From Ruminococcus sp. (GTDB lineage Bacteria; Bacillota; Clostridia; Lachnospirales; Lachnospiraceae), in the NCBI GenBank assembly GCA_013911065.1, contig JACERV010000010.1:62001-126000 (forward strand): DNA of 64,000 nt, read 5' to 3'. Made by a program: the position numbers and the translations under genes. Below the pieces are notes generated by a model. It was not told where the DNA came from. It searched no databases and was given only the letters and a program-made list of their open reading frames with translations. Each line of letters begins with the position of its first letter. Position 1 is the stretch's first letter. Below, piece by piece: positions 7,266 through 61,271 of this stretch.

Positions 7266-7396
7266 AACATCCATATCACTAAGGCGTGAAAGAACCCCGC
7301 CTAAGTCGACAGGATGTACTTTGCAGCTAAAGTTTGGAAAGACCAAACCTACCATATTGAACATTAGCAGTTCAATAAGTATTAGCTGCATAAGCA
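7266..7396 (+). repeat. Hairpin element copy A (upstream of degV)
   Basis: AACATCC...AGGATGTACTTTGCAGCTAA...TTAGCTGCATAAGCA; inner hairpins GTTTG-GAAAGAC-CAAAC and TTGAAC-attagca-GTTCAA. Shares blocks with copies B and C. Confidence 0.85.
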
Positions 7397-7437
7397 TAGA
7401 TATAGAATGCACGATGTAGGGTGCGGGAGGATATGGC

Positions 7438-8277
7438 ATGAGTTATAAAGTGATTGTTGACAGCTGCGGCGAACTTACAGAAGAGATGAAGAACAGCGGG
7501 TTTTACGAAACGGCCTCTCTAACAATGGAAGTAGATGGAGTCCGGATTATAGATGATACAACATTTAACCAGACAGATTTCTTAAAGCGTGTGGCGGCGA
7601 GTGCAGAAAGCCCCAAATCTTCCTGCCCGTCACCCCAGGAATATATGGAGCTTTACCACTGCGGCGCAGAAAGAGTTTACGCAGTGACATTATCTTCGGA
7701 ATTAAGCGGTTCTTATAATAGTGCTGAGCTTGGCAGAAAATTATATATGGAAGAATATGGAGAGAAGGATATCTATGTGTTCAACTCCCGCGCCGCATCA
7801 GTGGCGGAGACGCTTATAGCAATGAAAGTCCGTGAATGTGAAGATGCGGGCATGACTTTTCAGGAAGTGATTGCTGCTGTAGAAGGGTATATTGCAGACC
7901 AGCATACTTATTTTGTACTGGAGACTCTGGACACGCTTAGAAAAAATGGAAGACTCACAGGGATTAAGGCTATTGTAGCCAGTGCTTTAAACATTAAGCC
8001 GGTTATGGGGGCAAAGCCGGAGGGTGTCATATGTCAGCTGGGGCAGGCCAGAGGTATAAAGAGAGCACTGGAGAAGATGATAGATCATATTATAGCGGAG
8101 TTAAAGAATCCGGAAGAAAAGGTGCTGGCAATTGCTCATTGTAATTGTAAGGATAGAGCATTGGAAGTACAGCGTATGGTTTTGGAAAGAGTAAAAGTGA
8201 AATCCAGTTTTATTGTAGACACGGCAGGTATCAGCACGATGTATGCCAGTGACGGCGGAATAATAGTTGTGATATAG
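7438..8277 (+). CDS. DegV family fatty-acid-binding protein
   Basis: VIVDSCGELTEEM, VTLSSELSGSYNSA, LETLDTLRKNGRLTG. Confidence 0.9.
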   Translation: MSYKVIVDSCGELTEEMKNSGFYETASLTMEVDGVRIIDDTTFNQTDFLKRVAASAESPKSSCPSPQEYMELYHCGAERVYAVTLSSELSGSYNSAELGRKLYMEEYGEKDIYVFNSRAASVAETLIAMKVRECEDAGMTFQEVIAAVEGYIADQHTYFVLETLDTLRKNGRLTGIKAIVASALNIKPVMGAKPEGVICQLGQARGIKRALEKMIDHIIAELKNPEEKVLAIAHCNCKDRALEVQRMVLERVKVKSSFIVDTAGISTMYASDGGIIVVI

Positions 8278-8355
8278 AAAAGTTTGTGCTAAAATGCTGT
8301 ATAGGCAGTGGGGCCGGGTGGAGGCTTCTAATTGAGCATGAAGGAGTTTGGGAAT

Positions 8356-8592
8356 ATGAGTCAGGAAAAAGTAGACCGATATAAAGTGGAAAAAGCAAAC
8401 CGGAAGAAAATCATGAGGAAACAGCGGGTGATGAATATTGTCCGGAAAGGGATGCTGGTATTGGCAGCATTTGTACTGGTGGGATGGCTTGGATACTCTG
8501 CATATCAAAAGCATGATTCAGGAAAAGAGCGGCCGTTAGCAGAGGTTAATTATGAGCCCATCAACAACTACATGAGCCAGCTGGATCAGTAG
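8356..8592 (+). CDS. Small single-TM protein of unknown function
   Basis: ORF track starts at 8332, but ATG 8356 has SD AAGGAG at 8341-8346; one TM segment (GMLVLAAFVLVGWLGYSAY). Confidence 0.55.
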   Translation: MSQEKVDRYKVEKANRKKIMRKQRVMNIVRKGMLVLAAFVLVGWLGYSAYQKHDSGKERPLAEVNYEPINNYMSQLDQ

Positions 8593-8629
8593 GTTTAAGA
8601 AGTATAAAAATGAAAAAGGCGAAAAACAG

Positions 8630-8659
8630 GGCAGTCTGTCAGGACTGCCTTATTTTTTT
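8630..8659 (+). terminator. Intrinsic terminator before the dcw cluster
   Basis: GGCAGTC-tgtcag-GACTGCC then TTATTTTTTT. Confidence 0.9.
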
Positions 8660-8720
8660 GTCTTTTTTACTGAGCCGTCCCGGATTTATCTTCTTATCGT
8701 AAAAGTTTTGAAAAAAGTAC

Positions 8721-8802
8721 TTGAAAATGGGGGGAGTGTGGTTTACAATGGAGTCAAGTGGTAGGAAGTGGTAGACAGTGGTGTAAAGTGGGAGGAATGT
8801 GG
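8721..8802 (+). promoter_or_regulatory. mraZ promoter followed by MraZ-type operator repeats
   Basis: TTGAAA (8721) - 17 nt - TACAAT (8744-8749), then GTGG at 8758, 8768, 8778, 8788 and 8799 (10,10,10,11 bp steps; units like AAGTGGTAGG). Confidence 0.88.
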
Positions 8803-8829
8803 AGGCCCACTTCGCAGAAGGGGTTCCGG

Positions 8830-9267
8830 ATGTTACTAGGGGAGTTTAATCATACAATTGATGAAAAAGGCCGATTAATCATCCCAGCCAAGTTACGAGA
8901 CGATTTGGGAGAAAGTTTCGTAATCTGTAATGGCTTGGAGGGCTGCCTTTTTGTGTACTCCATGGACGAATGGAATAACTTTGTTACCGAACTGGAAACT
9001 TTGCCACGTATGAATAAAGATGCCAGAATATTCAAGCGTTATTTCTTCGGAAGCGCATCAGAAGGCAGTTTTGACAAGCAGGGGAGAGTTTTAGTTCCCC
9101 CTACACTCAGGAAAGCAGCCGGACTGGAAAAAGATGTTGTCCTGGTAGGAGTACAGGACCGCGTTGAAATCTGGGATAAAGCACTTTGGGAAGATAAGAG
9201 TCAGGTCAGTGAAGAGGATTTGGATGCGATTGCAGAGCGTATGGAGTCAATCGGTATCCGGATTTAA
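8830..9267 (+). CDS. mraZ: Transcriptional regulator / division cluster protein MraZ
   Basis: MLLGEFNHTIDEKGRLIIPAKLR; second repeat GSFDKQGRVLVPPTLR. The upstream start at 8758 would translate the operator repeats. Confidence 0.95.
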   Translation: MLLGEFNHTIDEKGRLIIPAKLRDDLGESFVICNGLEGCLFVYSMDEWNNFVTELETLPRMNKDARIFKRYFFGSASEGSFDKQGRVLVPPTLRKAAGLEKDVVLVGVQDRVEIWDKALWEDKSQVSEEDLDAIAERMESIGIRI

Positions 9268-9304
9268 CCTTGGCACTCAGACCAAATAACACATGGAGGA
9301 ATTT

Positions 9305-10243
9305 ATGGCATTCAAGCACGCATCAGTTTTACTGAAAGAGACTGTGGATGGCCTGGCTGTAAAGCCGGATGGAATCTACGTCGACGCTACACTCGGAGGA
9401 GGCGGACATGCCTGGGAGGTGTGTAAGCGGTTAAGCAGCAAGGGGAGTTTTATAGGAATAGACCAGGATGCGGCTGCAATTGAGGCAGCGAGTATCCGAT
9501 TACTCGACTTCGGGGAGAGAGTTACAATAATCAGGAGCAATTATTGTGATATGAAGCCGAGGCTCCAAGAGATAGGCATTGACAAAGTGGATGGAATCGT
9601 ACTGGATTTGGGCGTATCTTCTTATCAGCTGGATACGGCAGACCGGGGGTTTTCCTACCGGTCCGATGCTCCTCTGGACATGAGGATGGACCAGAGGCAG
9701 AAAATGACAGCAAAGGATATCGTCAATGACTACAGTGAATCAGACCTTTACCGCGTAATTCGCGATTACGGGGAAGACCGGTTCGCGAAGAACATTGCGA
9801 AACATATCGCAATAGCACGCGGGAGGGGTCCGATTGAAACAACGGGACAGTTAAATGAAATTATAAGACAAGCTATCCCGATGAAGTTTCAGAAAATGGC
9901 CGGGCATCCTTCTAAGAGAACATTTCAGGCAATTCGGATAGAGTTGAATCATGAATTGGATGTCTTAAAGGATACACTGGATGATATGATTGATTTATTG
10001 AATCCAGGCGGAAGGATTTGTATTATTACCTTCCATTCACTGGAAGACAGGATTGTGAAGAGCGCATTCAGGAAGAATGAGAATCCGTGTACTTGTCCAA
10101 GTCATTTCCCGGTATGTATATGTGGAAACATATCAAAGGGAAAGGTGATTACAAGAAAACCAATTTTACCAAATGAGGAAGAACTGGCTGAAAACAGCCG
10201 TTCAAAAAGCGCAAAGCTGAGAATCTTTGAGCGAGGAGTATAG
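9305..10243 (+). CDS. rsmH: 16S rRNA (cytosine1402-N4)-methyltransferase
   Basis: [57 protein letters not shown]. Confidence 0.95.
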
Positions 10244-10305
10244 CATATAAATTCGTCAGGAAGGGGAGAGCCTGACGAGACAGTATTAGGAAAGGGGCAG
10301 ACAGT

Positions 10306-10848
10306 ATGGCGGCAAGAAGACGGATATCATCATCTGGACGGGCAAAAAGCATAAACGGCAGCTACAGGCAGGAATATGTTTATGGTAACACAGTACGCCA
10401 GCCGGAAATTCTGCCAAAGAAAAGAGTACAGGAGAAACCAAAGAATCCAGCCAGGACAAGCCGTCAGGTACGCAAAAACCGCAGACGTGCATTAAGTATG
10501 AGTCCTGCATATGTGGTATTCCAGATGATTGCTGCAGCTTGTGCAGTTATGATATGTGTTGGATACCTGAGACTGCAGTCAGATATTGTGAGCAGATCTG
10601 AAAACATTTCTGCATTACAGGAAGAACTGGCGGATTTGACAGAACAAAATGATACGGCCTATCATGCAGCCGCAGATTCTGTAAACCTGGAGGAAATCCG
10701 CAGTAAGGCGATGAACGAGATGGGAATGGTATATGCAGCGCAGGGAAATGTGATAGAGTATGAAAGTCTTACCGGCGATTATGTGAAGCAGTACAGCGAT
10801 ATACCATCTGACGGTGTTCTTGCAAAGTCTAAGGCGGCATCAGATTAA
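10306..10848 (+). CDS. ftsL: FtsL-like septum protein
   Basis: Basic N-terminus, single TM, short coiled coil; position between rsmH and the PBP gene. Confidence 0.75.
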   Translation: MAARRRISSSGRAKSINGSYRQEYVYGNTVRQPEILPKKRVQEKPKNPARTSRQVRKNRRRALSMSPAYVVFQMIAAACAVMICVGYLRLQSDIVSRSENISALQEELADLTEQNDTAYHAAADSVNLEEIRSKAMNEMGMVYAAQGNVIEYESLTGDYVKQYSDIPSDGVLAKSKAASD

Positions 10849-10859
10849 GGATATAAAAT

Positions 10860-12881
10860 ATGGCAAAACGAAATAGAAGAAACAGGTTTAACTTTTTAAC
10901 AAAACGATTTTCGAAAAAAATGCAGAAAAAGCTGGTAATGCTATTTATGGCAATTATACTGGCTTTTATTGTTCTTGTGGGAAGAATTACATATATTAAT
11001 GCCTCAAAAGGAAATAAATACACGAAAATCGTGCTCGACCAGCAGGAATATGACAGCAGGGTAATCCCTTATAAGCGGGGAGATATTGTGGACCGGAACG
11101 GGACCAGGATTGTTACCAGCGAGAGGGTGTATAATGTCATATTGGATGTAAATGTAATGATGTCCAAGGATGATTATATTGCTCCTACCATTCAGGTACT
11201 GGAAGAGTGTTTTGGAGTAAAGGAAGCTGATGTCAGAAAGCGGATGGAAGAAAGCCCTGACAGCCACTATGAGATACTGGCCAAGGGAGTGTCTTATGAC
11301 AAGGCAAAAAAATTTCAGGATATAGAGGCAGATCAAGAGAAGAATGAAAATGTGAAGGGCATCTGGCTGGAAGATGATTATCAGAGGTCTTATCCATATG
11401 ATTCACTGGCAAGTGATGTGATAGGCTTTACCACCGCAGGAAATCAGGGAGCCATAGGGATTGAAAGTGCATACAATAGCATATTGAATGGAACAGATGG
11501 ACGGGAGTATGGTTATTTTGACAGTGCCTCTACAGTAAAACGTACTGTGAAGCCTGCAAAAAATGGAGATACCGTAGTGTCCACTATTGATGTGACGCTG
11601 CAAAGTATTGTGGAGCAGTGTATCAAGGAGTTCAATGAGGAACATGCCGGAGAAGAAAGAGAAGGTGAACTGGGAAGTAAGAATACAGCAGTTATCATTA
11701 TGAACCCGAATACAGGAGAAATCCTTGCTGAGGCATCTTATCCCAATTTTAATTTGAATGATCCGAGAGATTTGTCTTCCTTATATCCGAAAGAAAAATT
11801 GGCAGATATGACGGAGGAAGAACAACTGGATGCGCTAAATTCATTATGGCGGAACTTCTGTGTCAGTGATGCCTATGAGCCGGGGTCTACAGCTAAGCCA
11901 TTTACAGTAGCAACAGGGCTGGAGACAGGTGCTTTAACGGGAAACGAGTCCTATGTGTGCAATGGTTTTCTTCATGTAGGAGATTATGATATTTACTGTC
12001 ACCTTAAGACAGGGCACGGAGTACAGACGTTGGAACAGGCGGTAGCGAATTCCTGTAATGTTGCCTTGATGGAGGCTGCACAGTCTATTGGGGTGAAGAA
12101 CTTTGCCCGGTATCAGCGTATTTTTGGATTTGGTGAATATACGGGAATCGATTTACCGGGAGAAGCGTCCACGGCATCTCTTATTTATACAGACGAAACC
12201 ATGGGAATTACAGATCTCGCAACGAATTCTTTTGGCCAGGGATTTAACGTGACAATGACGCAAATGGCGGCGGCCTTCTCATCACTGATAAATGGAGGAT
12301 ACTATTATGAGCCTCACATCGTAAAACAAATTCAAGATGAGAGCGGAAGTGTCATTGAGACAAAAAATCCGGTGCTTCTCAGAAAAACAGTATCAACTGA
12401 GACATCCAAAATGATCAAACAATATATGAAGACAGTTATGACATCGGGAACAGGCCAGGGAGCAGCCGTGGCGGGTTATGATATTGGAGGAAAAACCGGT
12501 ACAGCCGAGAAACTTCCCCGTAATAATGGAAAGTATTTACTATCCTTTATAGGATATGCACCCCAGGAAAATCCGGAGGTAATGGTTTATGTGGTTGTGG
12601 ATGAGCCAAATGTGGCGAAGCAGGACACCAGCTCCTATGTGCTGGGGCTTTCCCAAAAAATCATGGCCCAGGCCTTCCCTTATTTGAATATAACCACAGA
12701 AGAGGGTTATGTACCTGATGCCGGTGAAACAGTCTCAGGAGATGACACATCCCAGCAGACAGACTATGCAGATTTTGATTCTGCTTATGAAGATACATAT
12801 GATAATGCCGATGGCTCTTACATTGATGAAGATTATAGCCCGGACCTGGATGACTGGGCTTCGGGGCAGCCGGCACAATAG
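10860..12881 (+). CDS. Class B penicillin-binding protein (FtsI/SpoVD type), copy 1
   Basis: RGDIVDRNGTRI, YEPGSTAKPFT, SFGQGFNVT, GGKTGTAEK; acidic C-terminal tail. Confidence 0.92.
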   Translation: MAKRNRRNRFNFLTKRFSKKMQKKLVMLFMAIILAFIVLVGRITYINASKGNKYTKIVLDQQEYDSRVIPYKRGDIVDRNGTRIVTSERVYNVILDVNVMMSKDDYIAPTIQVLEECFGVKEADVRKRMEESPDSHYEILAKGVSYDKAKKFQDIEADQEKNENVKGIWLEDDYQRSYPYDSLASDVIGFTTAGNQGAIGIESAYNSILNGTDGREYGYFDSASTVKRTVKPAKNGDTVVSTIDVTLQSIVEQCIKEFNEEHAGEEREGELGSKNTAVIIMNPNTGEILAEASYPNFNLNDPRDLSSLYPKEKLADMTEEEQLDALNSLWRNFCVSDAYEPGSTAKPFTVATGLETGALTGNESYVCNGFLHVGDYDIYCHLKTGHGVQTLEQAVANSCNVALMEAAQSIGVKNFARYQRIFGFGEYTGIDLPGEASTASLIYTDETMGITDLATNSFGQGFNVTMTQMAAAFSSLINGGYYYEPHIVKQIQDESGSVIETKNPVLLRKTVSTETSKMIKQYMKTVMTSGTGQGAAVAGYDIGGKTGTAEKLPRNNGKYLLSFIGYAPQENPEVMVYVVVDEPNVAKQDTSSYVLGLSQKIMAQAFPYLNITTEEGYVPDAGETVSGDDTSQQTDYADFDSAYEDTYDNADGSYIDEDYSPDLDDWASGQPAQ

Positions 12882-12889
12882 ATACGCAT

Positions 12890-12940
12890 AACCTTACAAA
12901 AGATGTAATATGTTATAAAAATATCTTTTGTAAGGTTTTT
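12890..12940 (+). terminator. Intrinsic terminator-like hairpin between the two PBP genes
   Basis: AACCTTACAAAAGAT (12890-12904) / ATCTTTTGTAAGGTT (12923-12937), perfect 15 bp, T-run, then ATG at 12945. Confidence 0.88.
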
Positions 12941-12944
12941 ATTT

Positions 12945-14729
12945 ATGAAGAACAAAACATATAATAAGAAAAAAATACTTGTCGTCTTTATTGGTGCTTC
13001 CATGATTCTTTTGGGATTAATCGGACGTTTGGTTTATTTGATGGTATTTGATGCAGAATATTATCAAAAAAAGGCGGAATCTCTTCATGAGAGGGAGAGA
13101 GAAATTAAAGCAGCAAGAGGCGAAATTGTGGACAGGAATAAAACAGTGCTGGCTACAAATAAGACAGTCTGCACAATTTCTGTCATACACAATCAGATTG
13201 AGGACCCGGAATTAGTCATCCAGACATTGATGAAGGAATTGGAGATGGATGAATCCAAGATTAGGAAACGTGTGGAAAAAGTTTCTTCTATAGAAAAAAT
13301 AAAAACAAATGTGGATAAAGAAACAGGGGATAGAATCCGTAATTATAATCTGGCAGGTGTAAAAGTAGACGAGGATTTTAAACGCTATTATCCGTACAAT
13401 GAAATTGCATCTAAAGTGCTTGGATTTACAGGCGGGGATAATCAGGGTATCATCGGACTTGAGGTGAAGTATGAGGAATATTTAAAAGGAATTAATGGAA
13501 CCATTCTGACAACAACCGATGCAAGAGGAATCGAATTGGAAGGTGTGGCAGAAGACAGGGTTGAGCCTATAGCAGGGCAGACACTTCAACTCAGTCTGGA
13601 CTATAATATCCAGGCATTCTGTGAGCAGGCCGCATTGAAGGTTATGGAAGAAAAACAGGCAGATGCTGTATCCATACTATTAATGAATCCCCAGAATGGA
13701 GAAATTCTGGCAATGGTCAATGTTCCGGAATTTAATCTGAATGAGCCGTATATACTAAATACAGAAGTAGATATGGACACGTTGACAGACGAAGAACTGC
13801 AGAACCAATTGAATCAGATGTGGAGGAATGGCTGTATCAATGATACTTATGAGCCAGGTTCTACTTTTAAAATTATTACAACGGCCGCCTGCCTGGAAGA
13901 AGGTGTCGTGAGTTTAAATGATACGTTCTCCTGCCCCGGATACCGGGTTGTAGAAGACCGCAAAATAAGGTGCCATAAAGTCGGGGGACATGGAACAGAG
14001 ACATTTGTCCAGGCAATTCAGAATTCCTGCAATCCTGTGTTCATCGATATTGGGCTTCGTCTGGGCTCTGATAAATTTTATGATTATTTTGGTCAATTTG
14101 GACTTCTTAATCTGACCAATGTAGATTTACCGGGTGAGGCTGGAACGATTATGCATAAAAAGGAAGATATTGGAACAGTAGAGCTGGCAACCATGTCTTT
14201 TGGGCAGTCTTTTCAGATTACGCCAATTCAGATGGCTGCAACAGTCAGCTCCCTTATTAACGGGGGAAGACGGATCACTCCCCATTTGGGAAAGGCAGTT
14301 TTGGATAAAGAAGGAAATGTGGTTGAAGAATTAGACTATAAAGAAAAAAATGGAGTTGTATCCCAGGAAACTTCTGCTACCATGCGTATGCTTCTGGAAG
14401 GTGTGGTTTCAGAAGGGACGGGGAGAAATGCATATATTGAAGGGTATTCTATCGGGGGAAAAACGGCGACTTCACAGACTCTGCCAAGAAGTGCAAATAA
14501 ATATATTTCTTCCTTTATCGGATTTGCACCCGCAGAGAACCCGCAGGTACTGGGAATGGTAGTGATACATAATCCGCAGGGTGTGTATTATGGGGGCACA
14601 ATTGCCGCACCGGTAATGAAAAATATTTTTGACAATGTACTTCCCTATCTGGGGATAGAGAAGACCGAAACTGTTGGTGAAGAGAATACAGAAACTGTAG
14701 ATAAGGAGAAAACAGAAGCTGCGGATTAA
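12945..14729 (+). CDS. Class B penicillin-binding protein (FtsI/SpoVD type), copy 2
   Basis: RGEIVDRNKTVLA, YEPGSTFKIIT, NSCNPVFI, SFGQSFQIT, GGKTATSQ. Confidence 0.92.
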   Translation: MKNKTYNKKKILVVFIGASMILLGLIGRLVYLMVFDAEYYQKKAESLHEREREIKAARGEIVDRNKTVLATNKTVCTISVIHNQIEDPELVIQTLMKELEMDESKIRKRVEKVSSIEKIKTNVDKETGDRIRNYNLAGVKVDEDFKRYYPYNEIASKVLGFTGGDNQGIIGLEVKYEEYLKGINGTILTTTDARGIELEGVAEDRVEPIAGQTLQLSLDYNIQAFCEQAALKVMEEKQADAVSILLMNPQNGEILAMVNVPEFNLNEPYILNTEVDMDTLTDEELQNQLNQMWRNGCINDTYEPGSTFKIITTAACLEEGVVSLNDTFSCPGYRVVEDRKIRCHKVGGHGTETFVQAIQNSCNPVFIDIGLRLGSDKFYDYFGQFGLLNLTNVDLPGEAGTIMHKKEDIGTVELATMSFGQSFQITPIQMAATVSSLINGGRRITPHLGKAVLDKEGNVVEELDYKEKNGVVSQETSATMRMLLEGVVSEGTGRNAYIEGYSIGGKTATSQTLPRSANKYISSFIGFAPAENPQVLGMVVIHNPQGVYYGGTIAAPVMKNIFDNVLPYLGIEKTETVGEENTETVDKEKTEAAD

Positions 14730-14737
14730 GAGAATTC

Positions 14738-14766
14738 TTGAAAAACAAAAGCCAATGAGGTATACT
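14738..14766 (+). promoter_or_regulatory. Putative sigma-A promoter before mraY
   Basis: TTGAAA - 17 nt - TATACT. Confidence 0.6.
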
Positions 14767-15817: not shown

Positions 15818-15819
15818 TA

Positions 15820-28915: not shown

Positions 28916-29911
28916 ATGCAGAGAATATTAAATAATCCGGATGATATTGTAGATGAAATGCTGAAAGGGTTTTTGAAAGCCCATGGAGATATCGTGGAAG
29001 CAACAGAAAACCCCCGGGTGGTAAAGGCGAAAAACATACCGGAAGGAAAAGTAGGTGTGATTACAGGAGGGGGTTCCGGGCATAAGCCTGCATTTATTGG
29101 CTATGTGGGAAAAAACCTCTGTGATGCTGCGGCGGTAGGAGAAATCTGCTCCTCCCCGACTGCAGCGGCATTCCTGGATGCATGTAAGGCAGCGGACCAG
29201 GGACAAGGGGTTGCGTGTCTGTACGGGAACTACTCCGGAGATAACATGAATGTGAAAATGGCTGTTAAAATGGCAAAAAAGGCTGGTATTACGTTAAAAA
29301 CAGTAGTTGCCAACGATGATGTGGCATCTGCTCCTAAAGACCAGAGAGAAAAACGCCGGGGAGTCGCAGGCGAAGTACTCATGTGGAAAGTAGGGGGAGC
29401 CAAGGCAGCAGCAGGCGGCAGTCTGGATGAAGTAATTGCCGCATCCCAGAAAGCAATCGACAATACCAGAAGTGTGGGGATTGGTCTGACTCCATGTACC
29501 CTTCCAGCAGTAGGGCATCCGAACTTTGAAATTAAAGAAGGAACTATGGAGGTAGGAATCGGGCATCACGGAGAGCCGGGCATTGAAGTATGTGCTCTGG
29601 AGACAGCGGCTCAGATGGCAAAGCGCATGGTAGATGTGGTTGTTCCCGATTATCCGTTTGAATCCGGAGATGAGGTGGTTATACTTGTATCCGGTCTTGG
29701 AGCTACACCTGTTATGGAGCTGTACGTATTATATGATGAGATTGATAAACTCCTGCAGGAAATGGGGATTAAGACTCATAAGGCATATGTAGGTAACTAT
29801 TTTACCTCTCTTGAGATGATGGGAGCCACATTAACCATGATGAAATTAGATGATGAATTGAAGGAACTGATCGACATGCCGGCTAACAGCATGGGGTTAA
29901 AACAATTGTAG
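28916..29911 (+). CDS. Dihydroxyacetone kinase-type subunit DhaK
   Basis: ITGGGSGHKPAFIGYVG, YGNYSGDNMN, GIGHHGEPG. Confidence 0.92.
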   Translation: MQRILNNPDDIVDEMLKGFLKAHGDIVEATENPRVVKAKNIPEGKVGVITGGGSGHKPAFIGYVGKNLCDAAAVGEICSSPTAAAFLDACKAADQGQGVACLYGNYSGDNMNVKMAVKMAKKAGITLKTVVANDDVASAPKDQREKRRGVAGEVLMWKVGGAKAAAGGSLDEVIAASQKAIDNTRSVGIGLTPCTLPAVGHPNFEIKEGTMEVGIGHHGEPGIEVCALETAAQMAKRMVDVVVPDYPFESGDEVVILVSGLGATPVMELYVLYDEIDKLLQEMGIKTHKAYVGNYFTSLEMMGATLTMMKLDDELKELIDMPANSMGLKQL

Positions 29912-29913
29912 GA

Positions 29914-30094
29914 AACATCCATGTTACTAAGGAAACAACCATGCTGCTAAGTTCGAAAGAACCTCACTAAGCCAGCAGGTTGTGCTTTACTACTAAATTC
30001 GGAAAAACCTCATTAAGTAGTATAAGCAAGTCGACAGGATGTACTTTGCAGCTAAGGTTTGAAAAGACCAAACCTTAGCTGCATAAGCAGGAGG
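29914..30094 (+). repeat. Hairpin element copy B (upstream of dhaL), nested
   Basis: Outer AACATCC...GGATGT enclosing AACAACC...GGTTGT; 3' hairpin GCAGCTAAGGTTTG-AAAAGAC-CAAACCTTAGCTGC then ATAAGCAGGAGG (SD). Confidence 0.9.
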
Positions 30095-30096
30095 TA

Positions 30097-30741
30097 TTGC
30101 TTGTGAGTGGATTTAAAAATGCAGACGGTAAAGTGATATTGTGGAAGATGGTCAAAGGAATCCAGGATAATAAAGCATATCTTGGAGAAGTGGATGGCTT
30201 AATCGGCGACGGAGACCATGGAATGAATATGAATAAAGGGTTTACAGTGTTTGAGACAAGATTCAAGGATGAACCTTTTACTTTTACAGAAGGCCTGGAG
30301 GAGCTAGGAATGATTCTCCTAAATGAAATAGGCGGTTCCATGGGTCCGATTTATGGAACAATTTTTATGGATATGGCAGAAGCAGGAGAAGATATGGAAG
30401 AAATTGATCTGGACGGGCTGGGCCGTATGCTGGCAGCAGGACTGGAAGGATTATCCGGTATTGTAGAGGCAAAAGTAGGAGATAAGACATTGGTAGATAC
30501 TTTGGCTCCTGCAGTGGAATCTGTAAAAAAATCGGCAGAAGACAAAGACGATTATAAAACCGCTATGGAAAAGATGAAAGCTGCAGCAGAGAAAGGAAAA
30601 GATTCTACCAAGGACATGGTTGCAAAATTCGGCCGGTCCAGCCGTTTGGGAGAACGTTCCAGAGGAGTTCTGGATGCAGGATCAGTTTCCTGTTTTATCA
30701 TTCTCAGTGCAATGGCAGATGGGATAATGGAAGTAATGTAA
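30097..30741 (+). CDS. Dihydroxyacetone kinase-type subunit DhaL
   Basis: GEVDGLIGDGDHGMNMNKGF, GRSSRLGERSRGVLDAGS. TTG 30097 or GTG 30103 start. Confidence 0.9.
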   Translation: MLVSGFKNADGKVILWKMVKGIQDNKAYLGEVDGLIGDGDHGMNMNKGFTVFETRFKDEPFTFTEGLEELGMILLNEIGGSMGPIYGTIFMDMAEAGEDMEEIDLDGLGRMLAAGLEGLSGIVEAKVGDKTLVDTLAPAVESVKKSAEDKDDYKTAMEKMKAAAEKGKDSTKDMVAKFGRSSRLGERSRGVLDAGSVSCFIILSAMADGIMEVM

Positions 30742-34294: not shown

Positions 34295-34652
34295 GTCATG
34301 CATAGATACTGTAATCGGAACTATCATGCAAATATAGGCCAGACAGTGATTCTGTCTAAAGCTCATCGGACAGGGCTGGCCGCTGCCGCGGGTGGTGATA
34401 TAGCGCCACATATTGATCGAGTTAAAAGCTCAGTTTTATAAGCTGGTTAATTATAACCTTGCAAATGCATACCACTTGTGAAATGTTCAATAGAGGAGTA
34501 GTAAAAGTATATTTGCTGTATAAGCTCTGATGAGAGGACAAAGATTACTGTATACACTGTGCGGATTATTTTATTTGTGAAATACGATAAGAAAATTTCG
34601 GAACATGATGTATATAACAGGTAGTGCTGCTTTTGCGCACTACCTGTTTTTT
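34295..34652 (+). ncRNA. Unassigned structured RNA candidate (~350 nt), free-standing or leader of the polyamine operon
   Basis: Promoter-to-terminator unit without a convincing ORF; internal complementarities TGCATaGATA/TATCATGCA, GGCCAG/CTGGCC, ACAG/CTGT, GCAAAT-ATAC/GTAT-ATTTGC. Confidence 0.55.
34617..34652 (+). terminator. Intrinsic terminator
   Basis: ACAGGTAGTGC-tgcttttgc-GCACTACCTGT then TTTTT. Confidence 0.9.
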
Positions 34653-34686
34653 ATATATAGGAAACTATGTTTCCTATATATAAAAA
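34648..34686. repeat. 18-bp hairpin related to the 3984-4024 hairpin
   Basis: TTTTTATATATAGGAAAC-tat-GTTTCCTATATATAAAAA followed by CCCTC, i.e. inverted orientation of the GAGGGTTTTTATATA module at 3979. Confidence 0.85.
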
Positions 34687-34763
34687 CCCTCTGGATGCAT
34701 AACACGCATAAGGAAAAATGGCCGCTAAAGCGACCGCGCTTCATAGACATGGGAGGTGGAAGA

Positions 34764-44054: not shown

Positions 44055-44202
44055 TTTAGTTCTGGATAATGGAAGCAGAGAGAAAAACTGCCCATTTCAC
44101 TTTTTATAAGTGTATGACAGGAAATAGAAAAATATTCGTGAGTTTTGCGTGACAAATAGAGTGCCCTACTGTAAAATGGATAAGAATGAAGAGGTGAAGC
44201 AT

Positions 44203-44781
44203 ATGTATATCATAGCAGGTCTGGGAAATCCGGACAAACAATATGAAGGTACAAGACATAATGTGGGATTTGAAGTGATAGATTCCATTGCAGAAAAATA
44301 CAATATAGCTGTAGATATAAAAAAACACCGCGCTTTTATAGGAAAGGGAATTATTGGCGGGCAAAAGGTCATCCTGGCCAAACCCCAGACTTATATGAAC
44401 CTGAGCGGAGAAAGTATTATCAGTCTTGTGGAATATTATAAAATAGATGTGGAGCAGGAACTGATTGTCATTTATGATGATGTCAGCCTTGATGTAGGAG
44501 CACTTAGAATCCGTGAAAAGGGAAGTGCAGGCGGACATAATGGAATTAAGAATATTATTGCCCACCTGGGAGGGCAGGTTTTTCCCAGAATTAAAATGGG
44601 GGTAGGTGAAAAGCCTCCCAGATATGATTTAGCAGATTATGTGCTGGGGCATTTTACGAAAGCGGAGCATGAGCTGATAGAAGAGGGCTGCAGATCTGCG
44701 GCACATGCTGTGGAAATGATAACCGCCGGGGATATAAAGGCAGCAATGAATCAGTATAACCGGAAAAAGAAGGAAGAGTAA
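44203..44781 (+). CDS. pth: Peptidyl-tRNA hydrolase
   Basis: MYIIAGLGNPDKQYEGTRHNVGFEVID, KPQTYMNLSGES, GSAGGHNGIKNI. Confidence 0.96.
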   Translation: MYIIAGLGNPDKQYEGTRHNVGFEVIDSIAEKYNIAVDIKKHRAFIGKGIIGGQKVILAKPQTYMNLSGESIISLVEYYKIDVEQELIVIYDDVSLDVGALRIREKGSAGGHNGIKNIIAHLGGQVFPRIKMGVGEKPPRYDLADYVLGHFTKAEHELIEEGCRSAAHAVEMITAGDIKAAMNQYNRKKKEE

Positions 44782-53184: not shown

Positions 53185-55341
53185 TTGAAGGCGAAAAAAA
53201 GAAATGTATGGATTGTACTGTGTGTCATTGCAGCGTTTATTTATATTGCCATTTTCGGACTGGGAAGTGGATTTAAGGGTGCAGTGGATATGCGTTTCGG
53301 GATCGATATCCGAGGGGGCGTAGAAGCTATATTCGAACCTGAGGGAGTGGATAAGGCGCCCTCTGCATCGGATTTGGAATCTGCCAGAATCGTAATAGAA
53401 AACCGTCTGGATGCACAGAACATACTGGACCGTGAAGTGACAGTAGATAAAGAGAACGGAAATATCATTGTCCGCTTCCCTTGGAAGTCTGATGAGAAGG
53501 AGTTCAATCCCGAGGCGGCGATTGCTGAATTAGGAGAAACTGCAAAGCTGACCTTCCGCGACCCGGAGGGGAATGTATTGGTAGAGGGGAAGGATGTAAC
53601 TGACAGCCAGGTGGTAAGGGACCAGCAGACTGGGGAATATGTAGTTTCTCTTAAGTTTGACAAGGCTGGTGCAGAAGATTTTGCAGATGCCACGACAAAA
53701 CTTGTAGGCAAGTCTATGGGCATTTATATGGATGAGGAGCAGATTTCCAATCCCCTTGTGCGGGAAGCTATTCAAGGAGGAGAGGCTGTTATCAACGGAA
53801 TGGATTCCCAGGAGGAGGCAAAGGCTCTGTCTGAGAAAATCAACGCCGGAGCACTGCCCTTTTCTCTCAAGACAACGAACTATAATACCATCAGCCCCAC
53901 ACTGGGCAGCGGTGCACTGAAAGCAATGACATCAGCCGCAGCAGTGGCATTTATTCTGGTATGCCTGTTCATGATGACGTATTACCGGCTTCCGGGCCTG
54001 ATTGCCTGCCTGACGATGGTTTTCCAGATGAGCCTGCAGGTACTGGCGCTTTCTGTACCCCAGTATACATTGACCCTTCCTGGAATTGCAGGTTTAATCT
54101 TATCGCTGGGTATGGCAGTGGATGCGAACGTTATCATTAACGAGCGTATCGGTGAAGAATTAAGCAAAGGAAGCAGTATTAAGAATGCAGTGAAGATGGG
54201 ATATAAAAATGCGTTTTCTTCTGTATTGGATGGAAATATTACAACGGCGGCAATTGCTGTGATTTTGATGATTTTCGGATCCGGAACGATGCTCAGTTTT
54301 GGTTATACGCTGCTGACGGGAGTTCTACTTAATCTGGCAGTTGGTGTCTGGCTCTCCAGAATTATGTTAAGCTCGGTGGTTCTGTATCCTAAGTTCCAGA
54401 ACCTAAAGCTGTTCTATATGAAGAAGACAAGAAAGGTTATAGATTTTCTTGGGAAGCGAAAAGCGATTTTCCTATTTACGGCAGCAATGCTTCTTGTAGG
54501 TTCTATCATCAGTGGAATGCGCGGTATTACATTGGATACCCAGTTTACAGGAGGGGTTATCCTGAAATATACCTGTGAAGGCACACCGGATACCGCCCAG
54601 GCGGCTCAGGCGGCTGAGGAGGTGTTGAACCGTCCGGTCAACGCCCAGGCTGGAGAAGATTTTGTATCCGGGCAGACAAAGCTGGTATTGAATCTTGGCG
54701 GCCATCAGGGAATCTCACCACAGGAACAGGCAAAAGTGCTTGATGCCTTAAATAAAGTCCAGCCTGAACAAAAATACAAGTCGTCAGAAAGCTATGCGGT
54801 AGAGCCTTACATCGGAGCACGTGCGCTGAAAAATTCTGCAATTGCGATTGTATTGGCAATGTTGTTTATTATTGTTTATATTGCACTGCGTTTTTCTGTA
54901 TTGTCAGGGCTATCTGCCGGAATATCAGGAGTAATTGCTCTTATATACGATGTATTTATTGTATTTTTGGTGTTTGGAGTCTGCAAAATACCAATTAATG
55001 ATGCTTTTGTGTCTGTAACCCTGACAATTATCGGATATTCAATTAACGATACAATTGTCCTTTATGACAGGATACGGGAGCATATGCGTACACGTACGAA
55101 AGAAGGACTTATACCCCTTGTAAACCAGAGTATTACCGAGACATTGGGACGGTCAATTAATACAGCATTTACCACAGTACTCTGTGTAGCGGTCATTTTA
55201 GTTTTTGCGGTAATTTATAATATAGATTCAATCAGAGTCTTTGCACTTCCTATGCTGGTCGGAATGATAAGCGGGTGTTATTCTTCCATATGTGTAGCAG
55301 CATCTGTATGGGTGACATGGAAAAATAGGAAAAAATCTTAA
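53185..55341 (+). CDS. secDF: Fused protein translocase subunit SecDF
   Basis: DMRFGIDIRGGVEAIFEP (SecD), LSLGMAVDANVIINERIGEE, DTQFTGGVILKY and IGYSINDTIVLYDRIRE (SecF) in one ORF. Confidence 0.95.
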   Translation: MKAKKRNVWIVLCVIAAFIYIAIFGLGSGFKGAVDMRFGIDIRGGVEAIFEPEGVDKAPSASDLESARIVIENRLDAQNILDREVTVDKENGNIIVRFPWKSDEKEFNPEAAIAELGETAKLTFRDPEGNVLVEGKDVTDSQVVRDQQTGEYVVSLKFDKAGAEDFADATTKLVGKSMGIYMDEEQISNPLVREAIQGGEAVINGMDSQEEAKALSEKINAGALPFSLKTTNYNTISPTLGSGALKAMTSAAAVAFILVCLFMMTYYRLPGLIACLTMVFQMSLQVLALSVPQYTLTLPGIAGLILSLGMAVDANVIINERIGEELSKGSSIKNAVKMGYKNAFSSVLDGNITTAAIAVILMIFGSGTMLSFGYTLLTGVLLNLAVGVWLSRIMLSSVVLYPKFQNLKLFYMKKTRKVIDFLGKRKAIFLFTAAMLLVGSIISGMRGITLDTQFTGGVILKYTCEGTPDTAQAAQAAEEVLNRPVNAQAGEDFVSGQTKLVLNLGGHQGISPQEQAKVLDALNKVQPEQKYKSSESYAVEPYIGARALKNSAIAIVLAMLFIIVYIALRFSVLSGLSAGISGVIALIYDVFIVFLVFGVCKIPINDAFVSVTLTIIGYSINDTIVLYDRIREHMRTRTKEGLIPLVNQSITETLGRSINTAFTTVLCVAVILVFAVIYNIDSIRVFALPMLVGMISGCYSSICVAASVWVTWKNRKKS

Positions 55342-55488
55342 TTTTACTTTAAGGAGTCTTAATAAAACTTCATCCTGTTGCGAAAAGTGCGGAAAAATGC
55401 TATCATAACCTGGTATATACCCTGCGCATATGTGAGCGGTAAAGAAATTAATCGCAGAGCACAGGAAGAAATGAAGGGAGCATGACAG

Positions 55489-57162
55489 ATGGGTCAGCAA
55501 AAGATGAGCGCAAGTGAGCGGGAAGCATATAGAAAAGAGCAGGCCAGAAAACGCCGCAGGATGGAAGAAAAACAGAGAAGGACAGTAAGTGAGAACCCGG
55601 CTAAATCAGTGGCGGGCGGCTCAGGCAGAAAAAGCGGCAGCCAAGGTCCGGCCGGAAAAAATAGAGGGAATGATAAAGGAACCGGGAAGAAGCAGACTTC
55701 TAATAAGATAAGCAGACAGATTGGAATCATTCTGTGTGGAATCCAGTTGGCTGTAACTTTGGTATTTATTGTAGCTTTGCTGGTCCTGAATATGCTGCCG
55801 ATGAAATATCTGGGGGTAATCGTGGGCATGCTGCTGGTGCTTTGGATTATTCTGCTGGTTGGACAGCTTATATCTAAGAAAAAAGCAATTGCCGGAAAGG
55901 TAATCAGTGTTCTCATGTCTATTGTGCTGGCGTTTGGTTCCTACTATATATTTAAAACAAATGGAACAGTTGAAAATATAAGCGGCGGTAATAAAAAAGT
56001 GGATAAGATGGTAGTTGCGGTGCTGGCGGAGGATCAGGCCGAGACGATTGAAGATGCAGCCGGTTACGATTTTGGTGTGCAGTATACCATGAAGGGGGAC
56101 GATGTTAAAAGTACAGTAGAATCGATCAACCAGGAATTGGGAAGTGATATTTCTACAGTAGAATACAACAGTCTGAATGAACAGGCAGCAGCATTGCATG
56201 ACGGTGAAGTCCAGGCTATTATCTATAATGATGCTTATACATCAATTCTAGAGGAAGCTTTTGAAGGATACAGCAATGCAGTGAAGATTATTTACTCTCA
56301 TGAAATTACAAGTGAAATTGAGAATACGGCAGCGGACGTAAAAGTAGCCGATGACTCTTTTACAGTGTACATCAGCGGTATTGATGTGTATGGGGCTATT
56401 GAGACCAACAGCCGCAGTGATGTAAATATGATAGCAACTGTGAACCCTACTACTCATCAGATTCTTTTAGTCACTACACCTAGGGACTATTATGTGGAAA
56501 TTCCTGGGATTTCAGGCGGACAGAAGGATAAGCTGACTCATGCGGGTATTTACGGAGTAGATGCGTCTATGGCTACTTTGGAAGAGCTTTATGATACAGA
56601 GATTGATTTCTATGCAAGAGTAAACTTTACCTCTCTTGTACAAATGGTAGATGCACTGGGAGGAGTGGATGTGATATCCGAGCAGGCCTTTACAACGAGT
56701 GATGAATCCGGACTGGTAATGAATGTGGCACAGGGAGAGAATCATTTTACCGGGCAGCAGGCACTGGCGTTTTCCAGAGAGAGAATGAATGTGGACGGCG
56801 GGGATTTCCAGAGAGGAAAAAACCAGCAGGCTGTGATTATAGCTATGATTAAGAAGGCGGTTTCACCTGCTATTTTGACTGGCGCCAATGGAATTTTGAG
56901 CAGCATAAGCGGAAATGTGGATACGAACATGTCCCAGGAACAGATTCAGGAATTGATTAAAAGTCAGCTTGCTGGCGGGGGAGCATGGAATATCAAATCC
57001 ATGGCAGCAGAAGGAACGGGGGATGACCAGGAATGTTATTCCTCTCCAGGCAGCATACTCTATGTAACCCAGCCTGATCTGAATACTGTTACGGCTATCA
57101 AAGACGCCATTGATGCAGTGGAAAACGGTGAGCTGCTGCCGGATTCAGAAGTGGCTCAATAA
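55489..57162 (+). CDS. LytR-CpsA-Psr family protein
   Basis: SDVNMIATVNPTTHQILLVTTPRDYYVEI, KLTHAGIYGVDAS, FSRERMNVDGGDFQRGKNQQ. Confidence 0.93.
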   Translation: MGQQKMSASEREAYRKEQARKRRRMEEKQRRTVSENPAKSVAGGSGRKSGSQGPAGKNRGNDKGTGKKQTSNKISRQIGIILCGIQLAVTLVFIVALLVLNMLPMKYLGVIVGMLLVLWIILLVGQLISKKKAIAGKVISVLMSIVLAFGSYYIFKTNGTVENISGGNKKVDKMVVAVLAEDQAETIEDAAGYDFGVQYTMKGDDVKSTVESINQELGSDISTVEYNSLNEQAAALHDGEVQAIIYNDAYTSILEEAFEGYSNAVKIIYSHEITSEIENTAADVKVADDSFTVYISGIDVYGAIETNSRSDVNMIATVNPTTHQILLVTTPRDYYVEIPGISGGQKDKLTHAGIYGVDASMATLEELYDTEIDFYARVNFTSLVQMVDALGGVDVISEQAFTTSDESGLVMNVAQGENHFTGQQALAFSRERMNVDGGDFQRGKNQQAVIIAMIKKAVSPAILTGANGILSSISGNVDTNMSQEQIQELIKSQLAGGGAWNIKSMAAEGTGDDQECYSSPGSILYVTQPDLNTVTAIKDAIDAVENGELLPDSEVAQ

Positions 57163-57185
57163 AAGGGATACTGAGGAAAAGAAAT

Positions 57186-59162
57186 ATGATAAAACTGTTT
57201 AAAAAGTGGGACCTTTCTATTGTTTATAAAGTGCTTTTGGTATTTTTGGACCTTGCATTTATCAATGTCAGTTCGTTTCTGGCATTGTGGGTCCGCTTCA
57301 ATATGCATATTAGTGAGATACCAATTGAGTATGCCGATTCGGTGAAAGAACTGATTGTGGTGAATACGCTTGTTACGGTTGCCATTTTTGCGGTATGCAG
57401 GCTTTATACAAGTTTGTGGAGATTTGCAAGCATCAAGGAGCTGATATATATTATTGAAGCCTGCATGGCATCGGTTTTATTTAATATTTTAGCTTATTAT
57501 CTTACTTACAGGATTATATACAGAAGTTATTTTCCATTGTATGTTACGGCCTTGTTCCTGCTTACCTGCTTCAGCCGTTTTTCTTACAGGCTGGCAAGGC
57601 TGCTTTACCGCGGAAATATTCATGGGCGTCATGTGCGTAATACCATGATTATCGGAGCAGGAGAGGCGTGCAATGTAGTGATGAAGGAGCTGGAACTCAG
57701 CACGGAGCTGGACGCAAAAATCTGTTGTGTGATTGATGATAATCCAAGAAAACACGGAACGTATATTCATGGAGTAAAAGTAGTCGGCGGCAGAGAAGAT
57801 ATCCTCAAGAATGTAGAGAAATACCGTATTAATGAGATTATTGTTGCCATTCCCAGTGCAGACAAAAGGGAAAGGCAGAAAATTCTGGAAATCTGTCAGA
57901 AGATTTCTGACTGTGAGCTGAAAATTCTTCCCGGAGTATATCAGTTAGTAAATGGGGAGGTCAGCGTTTCCAAGCTGCGTAATGTGGAAATAGAAGACTT
58001 GCTGGGGAGAGATCCTATACGGGTGACGACAGAGAAAATCGGGCGTTATGTATCGGGAAAAGCCGTGCTGGTGACAGGCGGAGGCGGAAGCATCGGCAGT
58101 GAGCTTTGCCGTCAGATTGCGGCAAACGGCGTGAAACAGTTGATTATTTTTGATATTTATGAGAATAATGCCTATGAAATCCAGCAGGAGCTGAAAGCCA
58201 AATATCCAAATCTGGATTTGATTGTACTGATTGGTTCTGTCAGAAACGGAAGAAAGTTAAATAGTATTTTCGCCAAGTACCGCCCTGATATCGTATATCA
58301 TGCGGCAGCGCATAAGCATGTTCCGTTGATGGAGGACAGCCCAAACGAAGCAATTAAAAATAATGTGTTTGGAACGTATAAGACTGCATTGGCGGCAGAC
58401 AGATACGGAGTAGAAAAGTTTGTCCTCATTTCCACAGACAAAGCAGTGAATCCGACGAATATTATGGGGGCATCCAAGCGGATGTGTGAGATGATTATCC
58501 AGGTGTTCAACAGGCGCTCAGAGACAGAGTATGTAGCGGTACGTTTTGGAAATGTGTTAGGCAGTAACGGCAGTGTGATACCATTATTTAAGAAGCAGAT
58601 AGAAGCAGGCGGGCCGGTTACAGTAACCCACCCGGATATTATCCGGTATTTTATGACCATACCGGAGGCAGTATCTTTAGTACTGCAGGCAGGAGCCAGT
58701 GCGAAAGGCGGAGAGATATTTGTTCTGGATATGGGGCAGCCGGTACGAATTGTAGATTTAGCAAAAAATTTAATCCGGTTATCCGGATATACTCTTGGTG
58801 TAGACATAGATATCCGGTATACCGGTCTGCGTCCGGGAGAAAAACTATATGAAGAGCTTTTGATGGCAGAAGAAGGCTTGGAAAGTACGGAAAATCAGAA
58901 AATCCATATTGGGAAACCTATTGAATTTGATGAAAAGGAATTTTTAAAAGATTTGGAAGACTTATACCAGGCAGCATATGCGGAGACAGACGATATGAAA
59001 TATATTGTCCATAAGATTATTCCAACTTACCGTTTAAGAGAAGCAGATATCCTCAGAGATCAGCAGATACAGGCATGTTGGAAAAAGGAATTTACAGACA
59101 CCCGCTCCAAGCTGCCTAGTGCTTTTTTGGACGGAGGAACCGCTCATAAGGAGGATATATGA
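57186..59162 (+). CDS. Membrane nucleotide-sugar 4,6-dehydratase (CapD/FlaA1/PglF type)
   Basis: N-terminal TM region, GGGGSIGSELCRQI, HAAAHKHVPLMEDSP, STDKAVNPTNIMGASKR (Met at the usual Tyr position). Confidence 0.93.
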   Translation: MIKLFKKWDLSIVYKVLLVFLDLAFINVSSFLALWVRFNMHISEIPIEYADSVKELIVVNTLVTVAIFAVCRLYTSLWRFASIKELIYIIEACMASVLFNILAYYLTYRIIYRSYFPLYVTALFLLTCFSRFSYRLARLLYRGNIHGRHVRNTMIIGAGEACNVVMKELELSTELDAKICCVIDDNPRKHGTYIHGVKVVGGREDILKNVEKYRINEIIVAIPSADKRERQKILEICQKISDCELKILPGVYQLVNGEVSVSKLRNVEIEDLLGRDPIRVTTEKIGRYVSGKAVLVTGGGGSIGSELCRQIAANGVKQLIIFDIYENNAYEIQQELKAKYPNLDLIVLIGSVRNGRKLNSIFAKYRPDIVYHAAAHKHVPLMEDSPNEAIKNNVFGTYKTALAADRYGVEKFVLISTDKAVNPTNIMGASKRMCEMIIQVFNRRSETEYVAVRFGNVLGSNGSVIPLFKKQIEAGGPVTVTHPDIIRYFMTIPEAVSLVLQAGASAKGGEIFVLDMGQPVRIVDLAKNLIRLSGYTLGVDIDIRYTGLRPGEKLYEELLMAEEGLESTENQKIHIGKPIEFDEKEFLKDLEDLYQAAYAETDDMKYIVHKIIPTYRLREADILRDQQIQACWKKEFTDTRSKLPSAFLDGGTAHKEDI

Positions 59163-60364
59163 AAATACCATTTTCACCACCGGATATTACAGAAGAAGAA
59201 ATTACAGAAGTAGCTGAGACATTGCGCAGCGGATGGATCACCACAGGCCCCAGGACGAAGGAGTTTGAATGCAGAATTGCAGAATACTGCCATACTAGAA
59301 AAGCAGTCTGTCTTAACTCTGCCACGGCCTGTCTGGAGATGACACTTCATGTGATGGGAATTGGCCCGGGAGATGAGGTCATTACCACTGCGTATACTTA
59401 CTCGGCTACAGCCAGCTGTATTTGCCATGTGGGAGCAATGCCCGTTCTGGTAGATACATTGCCGGGTTCTTATGAAATGGACCCACAAAAGGTGCGTGAG
59501 GCAGTGACGGAACGTACGAAGGCTATTATCTCAGTAGATTTAGGAGGTGTAATTTATAGCCGGTATGATGAAATTTTTCGGATTGTGGAAGAAAAGAGGC
59601 CTATATTTAGTCCCTCCAATGAAAAACAGGAGGCTTTGGGAAGAATTCTTATAATCGCGGATGCTGCCCACGCTTTTGGATCCTGGAGAGATGGGAAGAT
59701 ATGCGGGGAGATTGCAGATTTTACTTGCTTTTCCTTCCATGCGGTGAAAAACCTGACTACAGCGGAAGGCGGTGCTGTGACATGGTCCCAGGCAATTACA
59801 CAGGCCGGTCTGGATGAAGAGAAGTTATACAAAGAATATATGCTCCTTTCCCTTCATGGACAATCAAAAGATGCATTGGAGAAAACGCAGGCTGGTGCAT
59901 GGGAATATGATATCGTGGCACCTTATTATAAATGCAATATGACAGATATTATGGCTGCAATAGGACTGGTACAGCTAAAGCGCTATCCGGAAATCCTGAA
60001 ACGCAGGCGCAGTTTGATAGAGCAGTATAATAAAGGTTTGGACGGATGCCCTGTGGAAGTTCTGAATCACTATGGGGAGGATATGCAGTCCAGCGGACAT
60101 CTATATCTTGTACGTGTGCTTGACAAAACCCGTCAAGAATGTAACAATATAATCAATGAACTGGCAAAATCTGGGATTGCATCAAATGTCCACTATAAGC
60201 CTCTGCCCATGCTGACAGCATACAGTCAGATGGGATTTGATGTGAAAGATTATCCAAATGCTTATGCACAGTTTGAAAATGAAATTACACTGCCGCTTCA
60301 CACCTGTCTCACAGATGAACAGGTAGAATATGTTGCAGGTACATTCAGGAGATTAGTAATATGA
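59159..60364 (+). CDS. DegT/DnrJ/EryC1/StrS sugar aminotransferase
   Basis: LRSGWITTGPRTKEFE, DEVITTAYTYSATAS, FSFHAVKNLTTAEGG (PLP Lys); ATGA overlap with the previous gene. Confidence 0.94.
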   Translation: MKIPFSPPDITEEEITEVAETLRSGWITTGPRTKEFECRIAEYCHTRKAVCLNSATACLEMTLHVMGIGPGDEVITTAYTYSATASCICHVGAMPVLVDTLPGSYEMDPQKVREAVTERTKAIISVDLGGVIYSRYDEIFRIVEEKRPIFSPSNEKQEALGRILIIADAAHAFGSWRDGKICGEIADFTCFSFHAVKNLTTAEGGAVTWSQAITQAGLDEEKLYKEYMLLSLHGQSKDALEKTQAGAWEYDIVAPYYKCNMTDIMAAIGLVQLKRYPEILKRRRSLIEQYNKGLDGCPVEVLNHYGEDMQSSGHLYLVRVLDKTRQECNNIINELAKSGIASNVHYKPLPMLTAYSQMGFDVKDYPNAYAQFENEITLPLHTCLTDEQVEYVAGTFRRLVI

Positions 60365-61059
60365 TACTAAATTGGGAACAATTGCCGGAATCTATGCGCA
60401 GCGATTCTGTGCGGCCTTATTATGAAACATTGAAAAAGAAGCAGTCCGGCCTTTATATGAAACGTGGCTTGGATTTCTTATTTGCGTTTGTCCTGACGGT
60501 TGTCTTGTCACCAGTCATGGCAGGTGTAGCATTGTGGATAAAATTAGATAGCAGAGGTCCGGTCTTTTACAGGCAGGAGAGAATTACACGATATGGGAAA
60601 CCATATCGTATTTTCAAGTTTAGGACTATGGTTAATGGGGCTGATAAAAAAGGACCTCTGGTTACGGAAAAGCAGGACTCCAGAATTACAAGAGCAGGGC
60701 AGACTCTGCGCCGGTGCAGGTTGGATGAGCTGCCTCAGCTGCTGAACATTCTCCGGGGAGAAATGTCCTTTGTGGGAACAAGGCCCGAGGTAAGGAAATA
60801 TGTAGCCCAGTATACAGGGGAAATGCATGCAACATTGCTGCTCCCGGCGGGGGTTACCTCCCGGACCAGTATCCTGTTTAAGGATGAAGATGTGCTGCTG
60901 GAAAAATACCAGAAAGAAACAGGAAAGACAGTGGACCAGGTGTATGTAGAGTATATCCTTCCGGTGAAGATGAAATACAATTTACAGTATTTGAAGCAGT
61001 TCAGCTTTTTCGGTGATATCAAGGTGATGTTTGAAACAGTTCTGGCGGTGTTAAAGTAA
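60361..61059 (+). CDS. Polyprenyl-phosphate phosphoglycosyl transferase (PglC/WcaJ type)
   Basis: RGLDFLFAFVLTVVLSPVM, GPVFYRQERITRYGKPYRIFKFRTM, DELPQLLNILRGEMSFVGTRPE. Confidence 0.94.
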   Translation: MILNWEQLPESMRSDSVRPYYETLKKKQSGLYMKRGLDFLFAFVLTVVLSPVMAGVALWIKLDSRGPVFYRQERITRYGKPYRIFKFRTMVNGADKKGPLVTEKQDSRITRAGQTLRRCRLDELPQLLNILRGEMSFVGTRPEVRKYVAQYTGEMHATLLLPAGVTSRTSILFKDEDVLLEKYQKETGKTVDQVYVEYILPVKMKYNLQYLKQFSFFGDIKVMFETVLAVLK

Positions 61060-61067
61060 ATATAGAA

Positions 61068-61271
61068 GCATCCATGTCACTAAGGCAGAAAGGACTAGGC
61101 TCAAGGAAACATCCATGTTACTAAGACCTGAAACTACCAGGTCAAGTCACCAGGATGTACTTTGCAGCGTAAGCTCTGAAAATACCAGAGCTAAGCAGCA
61201 TAAGCAAGTCGGCAGGATGTACTTTGTAACTAGGGCTTGAAAGAACCAAGCCAAGTTACATAAGCAGGAGG
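61068..61271 (+). repeat. Hairpin element copy C (upstream of GT4 gene), nested
   Basis: Outer GCATCC...GGATGTACTTTG enclosing AACATCC...GGATGTACTTTG; ends TGTAACT..GGCTTG-AAAGAAC-CAAGCC..AGTTACATAAGCAGGAGG. Confidence 0.9.

Follow-up and report, generated by a model that had tools for sequence, protein, structure and literature searches.

A previously unlisted family of intergenic two-hairpin repeats in Lachnospiraceae

The hairpin-bearing sequences which lie ahead of degV, dhaL and a glycosyltransferase gene in the window (the whole 64,000-nt stretch of DNA analysed here) belong to a previously unlisted family of intergenic repeats, each of about 100 nt and present at about 40 sites per genome. 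We consider it probable that this element is a REP/BOX-like repeat, interspersed and non-autonomous, of Lachnospiraceae, that its fold is maintained at the level of the family, and that its nested forms arise from self-insertion and recombination. An earlier note, made from the letters of the window, had spoken of a "three-copy" element; this is true of the window alone, as a covariance model built from 30 copies has 52 matches in the window's genome (G000, Faecalicatena, 4.3-Mb), or 42 sites after neighbouring matches are joined. In the open-licence literature we found no description of this repeat family, nor of interspersed hairpin repeats in Lachnospiraceae.

Anatomy of the unit and its copies in the window

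The repeat unit (GGAAACATCC…ATAAGCA, about 102 nt) consists of two neighbouring hairpins, X and Y, both in the same orientation, and reads in full GGAAACATCC-A-TGTSAC-TAAG-stem-AAARRAC-stem-CTAAGTSGACA-GGATGT-ACTTTGCAAC-TAAG-stem-AAARRAC-stem-CTAAGTTGC-ATAAGCA, with fixed ends (GGAAAC...AGCA). Both hairpins have CTAAG on each arm, pairing with itself round a central conserved A·A mismatch, a feature which the earlier note had not pointed out; the conserved core can be written ACTARG-stem-AAARRAC loop-stem-CYAAGT. The 7-nt loop, AAARRAC, had been described as usually closed by G-C, and in our alignment of 30 copies this holds for hairpin X in 30/30 and for hairpin Y in 28/30. When folded, representative copies score 4.8 to 8.2 s.d. 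below their dinucleotide shuffles.

At the 5′ end of the unit, AAGGAAACATCCATG (for example at window 61105-61118) looks like a Shine-Dalgarno sequence followed by a start codon. This likeness is probably fortuitous, and it may lead to spurious small-protein annotations; the frame from the internal ATG to the unit end is open in 27/108 units and stopped in the other 81, and we set aside a small encoded peptide for that reason.

The described layout is present at all three places in the window, always on the + strand, and the places had been given correctly, the true limits of each copy being slightly wider. Copy 1 (7263-7396), upstream of degV (ORF 7438-8277), is a single two-hairpin unit matched by the model at 7263-7369 (E 1.2e-14, filters off). 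Its hairpin X (7267-7317) is closed by ACATCC (7267-7272) pairing with GGATGT (7312-7317), and its hairpin Y (7319-7394) is broken up by an unrelated small hairpin, TATTGAAC-ATTAGCA-GTTCAATA (7355-7377), which is a separate repeat, present or absent elsewhere. This second short repeat, CTTATTGAAC-ATTAGCA-GTTCAATAAG, was also seen in the L017 copy (2538-2671) and near G001:C1 573470; it interrupts hairpin Y in some copies, and at one intergenic site its presence differs between G000 and the related genome G001.

Copy 2, whose outer unit spans 29911-30089, lies upstream of the dhaL ORF (30097-30741); it begins with the G that ends the upstream stop codon, TAG, and GGAGG stands directly 3′ of it, ahead of dhaL. 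A complete inner unit of the ACAACC/GGTTGT subfamily (29931-30028; model E 6.9e-18) replaces the tip of the outer hairpin X, and the outer hairpin Y (30044-30087) has perfect 15-nt arms (30047-30061 and 30069-30083). Copy 3 (outer unit 61065-61266), upstream of the glycosyltransferase ORF (61278-62498) and again with GGAGG directly 3′, contains a complete inner unit (61105-61206; model E 9.3e-21) which adjoins the outer unit's own, decayed hairpin X. With filters off, the model also matches the outer halves of copy 2 (30030-30089) and copy 3 (61215-61266), and the next independent match in the window reaches only E 0.005. The nested architecture claimed for all three is found in copies 2 and 3, where a complete unit stands in place of or beside hairpin X, but not in copy 1.

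At window 34640-34750 there is also a palindromic A+T-rich insertion, TATATAGGAAACTATGTTTCCTATATA, missing from F. contorta, and similar indels were seen on G000:C11 near 78358 and 85345; other intergenic repeat families thus exist here.

Distribution in the family and conservation of the fold

A 17-nt pattern, allowing one mismatch, has 29 matches in the window's genome and 0 in a reversed control. In relatives, the covariance model has 58 matches in G001 (Faecalicatena contorta NLAE-zl-C134), 21 in G003 and 15 in G002 (Clostridium sp. C105KSO13), a few of the matches in the four genus genomes being weak or from other subfamilies. The covariance-model search of Lachnospiraceae which the earlier note had proposed yields further homologues in genus and family, with a model match in 16 of 299 sampled genomes of the family. 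The core pattern CTARGYTCGAAANNACCTYRCYAAG is found in 50 of the 299, with 0 control matches. In a class-wide sample of 391 genomes, 8 were core-positive, all 8 of them Lachnospiraceae, the core hairpin being absent from the sampled genomes of other families of the class; three matches outside Lachnospiraceae in a pattern scan of named genomes look like chance, and were rejected. Viral contigs, phages and plasmids gave no element match.

The suggestion that this is not a named RNA family is borne out, and we reject a known family: Rfam (release 15) has no match for the window, a permissive search with copy 2 gave best scores far under the gathering threshold, and among 11 loci from other genera only a T-box and tRNAs were matched, none of which is the element.

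Across genera the order GGAA-hairpin-hairpin is kept while the stems are unrelated (ACTCAATTTTAC/GTAAAATTGAGT in G162, ACATAAGCTTCAC/GTGAACTTATGT in G224), and folding of nine cross-genus sequences gave strong z-scores in 8/9, the weak one being G003_C11 (-1.2). In many Lachnospiraceae core hairpins (for example L094, L095 and L179), U.C/C.U mismatches become tandem G.A pairs (CGAG/CGAG) on the opposite strand, and RNA of the opposite strand is predicted to be the more stable in 9/9 cross-genus sequences tested. The same core also occurs in other subfamilies (ATTATACCATAAATAC-core...), which were seen at G003:C27:25039, 35243 and 37638, at G003:C12:50782 and at G277:C5:10353-10559; some stand in 91-nt tandem arrays, and they are not limited to the sense strand.

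The covariation which had been taken to indicate selected secondary structure persists over many copies. In the 30-copy alignment 92.5% of cells are paired, with two-sided changes at 19/37 pairs, and pairing falls to 26-40% when the partner strand is slid. Among 109 distinct copies, in an alignment which was fitted to the model and so leans towards it, 91.9% of cells are paired and 25/37 pairs show two-sided changes, the two-sided cells numbering 488, where shuffled alignments have 172 and slid ones no more than 43; as the copies are related and not independent, we claim no p-value. The clearest case is the third base of TGTSAC/GTSGACA (C-G, U-A, G-C). In 11 same-length ortholog pairs the changes in stems were few: 9 pairs were broken, 8 kept and 2 compensated. 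Covariation shows that pairing has been selected, and does not separate the RNA from the DNA level or reveal selection at each locus. Mispairs among 3885 cells comprise 97 G-U (about 2.5%) and 69 A-C; since neutral decay predicts similar numbers of the two, the sense strand can show no more than a modest preference for pairing as RNA.

Site variation, placement and the search for a mobiliser

G000 and G001 are collinear, with about 96% identity in the regions compared, and at about half of the orthologous sites examined the two genomes have the same element. No clear element is present in one of the two at G000:C10:63721, C11:43854 and C12:112891. The window itself has an element-free site (GGATAAGAATGAAGAGGTGAAGCATATG, 44178-44205, + strand), upstream of a pth-like ORF, whose F. 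contorta ortholog (G001:C13, model match 13919-14030) holds a nested element; other orthologous sites hold element remnants. Form also differs between the two genomes, with one unit against three in tandem at C10:144404, a nested against a tandem form at C11:61787, a plain against a nested form at C38:20062 and, between species, one hairpin against two at G001:C1:340492. Where one- and two-hairpin forms occupy the same site, the difference is a deletion between CTAAG repeats; at G001:C1:337812, the element has been replaced by another subfamily. Several "empty" sites retain a few element letters, so that deletion, and recombination between CTAAG repeats, have certainly contributed, and the evidence for loss through deletion is as good as that for gain.

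Such variation could be the work of deletions, slippage and gene conversion alone, acting between the copies of an old repeat which no longer moves. That would agree with the sharing of the element at about half of the compared sites, and with the many differences which are either deletions between direct CTAAG repeats or subfamily swaps at one site. However, G001 has no obvious remnant at the site corresponding to G000:C11:43854, nor has window 44178-44205 when set against G001:C13:13919, and the first spread of the copies would be left unexplained. We regard this reading as possible, though rather unlikely.

By simple ORF calls, all 31 full type-I copies of G000 which lie between same-strand genes are in sense; where the neighbours diverge or converge, the copy likewise reads in sense with one of them. 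Three matches in G000 depart from this: C12:9799, which is a half-element; C38:17774, which belongs to another subfamily; and C10:19397, the palindrome echo of a sense copy. The half-element (G000:C12:9799-9900), which has hairpin Y only and is fused to another G+C-rich palindromic repeat, is antisense to both its neighbour genes, unlike full copies; G001:C1:37142 is likely its ortholog. So strict an orientation is not what one would expect of a purely neutral repeat, and it counts against the reading favoured here, although the strands of replication and transcription are confounded: the leading strand has about 96.5% of the same-strand intergenic gaps (about 3.5% are on the lagging), so that orientation cannot part the one from the other. 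Two F. contorta copies oppose the local GC skew, yet are in sense with a flanking gene.

The sense placement of these 31 copies, together with the 11-18 nt by which many copies end ahead of a start codon, the strong covariation and the slight excess of G-U over A-C (97 to 69), would suit a cis-regulatory structured RNA (a riboswitch, a protein-binding leader or a translational control) before Shine-Dalgarno sequences. Against this, the downstream genes, named from their translations alone, have mostly core or housekeeping functions and no common theme, in agreement with the original remark that they are unrelated. Some copies follow the 3′ end of a gene whose neighbour is convergent, or stand immediately ahead of a terminator-like hairpin, and from one close species to another a copy may be nested, in tandem or lost. 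G-U pairs are few for an RNA family, and Rfam has no match. The 5′-UTR regulator which had been offered as one of two alternatives is thus unsupported, and we hold a cis-regulatory role for the element to be improbable. The other alternative, a non-autonomous mobile hairpin, is favoured by copy number, by the differences between species and by the nested and tandem copies.

What might move such a hairpin was sought among known transposases. In the Lachnospiraceae sample, Y1_Tnp shows no association with the core (31/50 core-positive genomes, 175/299 overall) and is missing from 8/20 core-rich genomes; the 1.5 kb around the Y1 genes examined contain no core, and no tnpA was seen beside any copy examined. 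With neither association nor linkage to the core, mobilisation by Y1/RAYT was rejected, as was a Y2/IS91 mobiliser, Y2_Tnp being absent from the genus. The genome regions read contain no autonomous copy with matching ends; a candidate parent, in which two 5′ ends lie 2.5 kb apart on G000:C49, was rejected, the ORFs enclosed resembling an ABC transporter. A long RAYT-like Y1_Tnp gene (258 aa) was observed at G000:C43:21934-22263 (L051), and is found in 4/4 genus genomes (258-266 aa); in G000 it has different hairpins (AAAGGGACTGACCC) beside it.

No target duplication was detected at 73 junctions, and AAG occurs at the 5′ junction of 8/32 sites (1.2 expected), although it is not fixed and its G may be the element's own. 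A pair of hairpins on one strand, a left-junction preference, the lack of duplication and the leading-strand orientation all resemble the published anatomy of hairpins moved on single-stranded DNA by Y1 transposases of the IS200/IS605 or RAYT type (PMC6006769). The missing Y1 association, the core-rich genomes which have no Y1, the lack of a core beside Y1 genes and the other hairpins beside the long Y1 gene of G000 argue against such a transposase, which we think a very doubtful agent here.

Likeness to known repeats and proposed mode of spread

In style, the closest known kind is the BOX elements of Streptococcus pneumoniae, which are composite, form stem-loops, insert into one another and have been judged parasitic (PMC3049150). 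The element shares with them its stem-loop modules, intergenic position at many sites, variable number of internal modules, mutual insertion and a likely effect on co-transcribed genes; the likeness is one of architecture only, the host group of BOX being different, and the element differs in its two direct hairpins with a common core, its strict sense orientation between same-strand genes and its self-insertion at the hairpin tip. In possible mechanism, REP/REPIN and IS200/IS605 hairpins are closest. REP/REPIN/BIME sequences with their RAYTs (PMC3733652, PMC6006769) are likewise high-copy, imperfect intergenic palindromes which occur in clusters and whose fold is conserved above sequence; but the element, in the 30-copy alignment, carries neither of the tags GTAG and CGTC at the foot of its hairpins, its conserved motif being ACTAAG inside the stem, its hairpin pairs are direct and not inverted, and it has no associated Y1 gene flanked by the same hairpins. 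With IS200/IS605-derived elements (PMC6006769) it has in common that a single strand bears two subterminal hairpins, that one sequence is preferred, though not fixed, at the left junction and that no target duplication was detected, but not an association with Y1 genes, and no tnpA with matching ends or autonomous relative was found. Classical MITEs have terminal inverted repeats and target site duplications; the ends of the element, GGAAAC and AGCA, are not inverted repeats, and no duplication was detected.

For the non-autonomous repeat which we favour, we propose that a trans-acting factor recognises the folded hairpins, as single-stranded DNA or RNA, and would thereby spread the unit. What selection would then act on is spreading, which preserves the fold because the folded copies are those that spread, and not the individual sites. 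The repeated CTAAG cores and TAAG-like junctions suggest that units insert into, and recombine with, each other, and that the nested and tandem forms, as well as those with one hairpin, arise in this way. Where a copy lies between co-transcribed genes it would be transcribed with them, and the stability or translation of the mRNA may incidentally be affected. More speculatively, the element could belong to a family-restricted superfamily of self-nesting hairpins which spreads without a HUH transposase, for example by a host enzyme acting on single-stranded DNA or by an RNA-level route, and which grows by a recursive hairpin grammar; we would give this extended proposal only a small chance.

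Proteobacteria and streptococci have well-described interspersed hairpin repeats, and Lachnospiraceae are a dominant family of the gut. For RNA discovery, the element is a warning: a sequence may covary strongly ahead of start codons and yet be no regulatory RNA. One repeat family here combines dozens of copies per genome, natural variants of occupancy and architecture at identical sites, and strong covariation, which makes it a good system for finding what moves transposase-less repeats and how intergenic hairpins affect expression.
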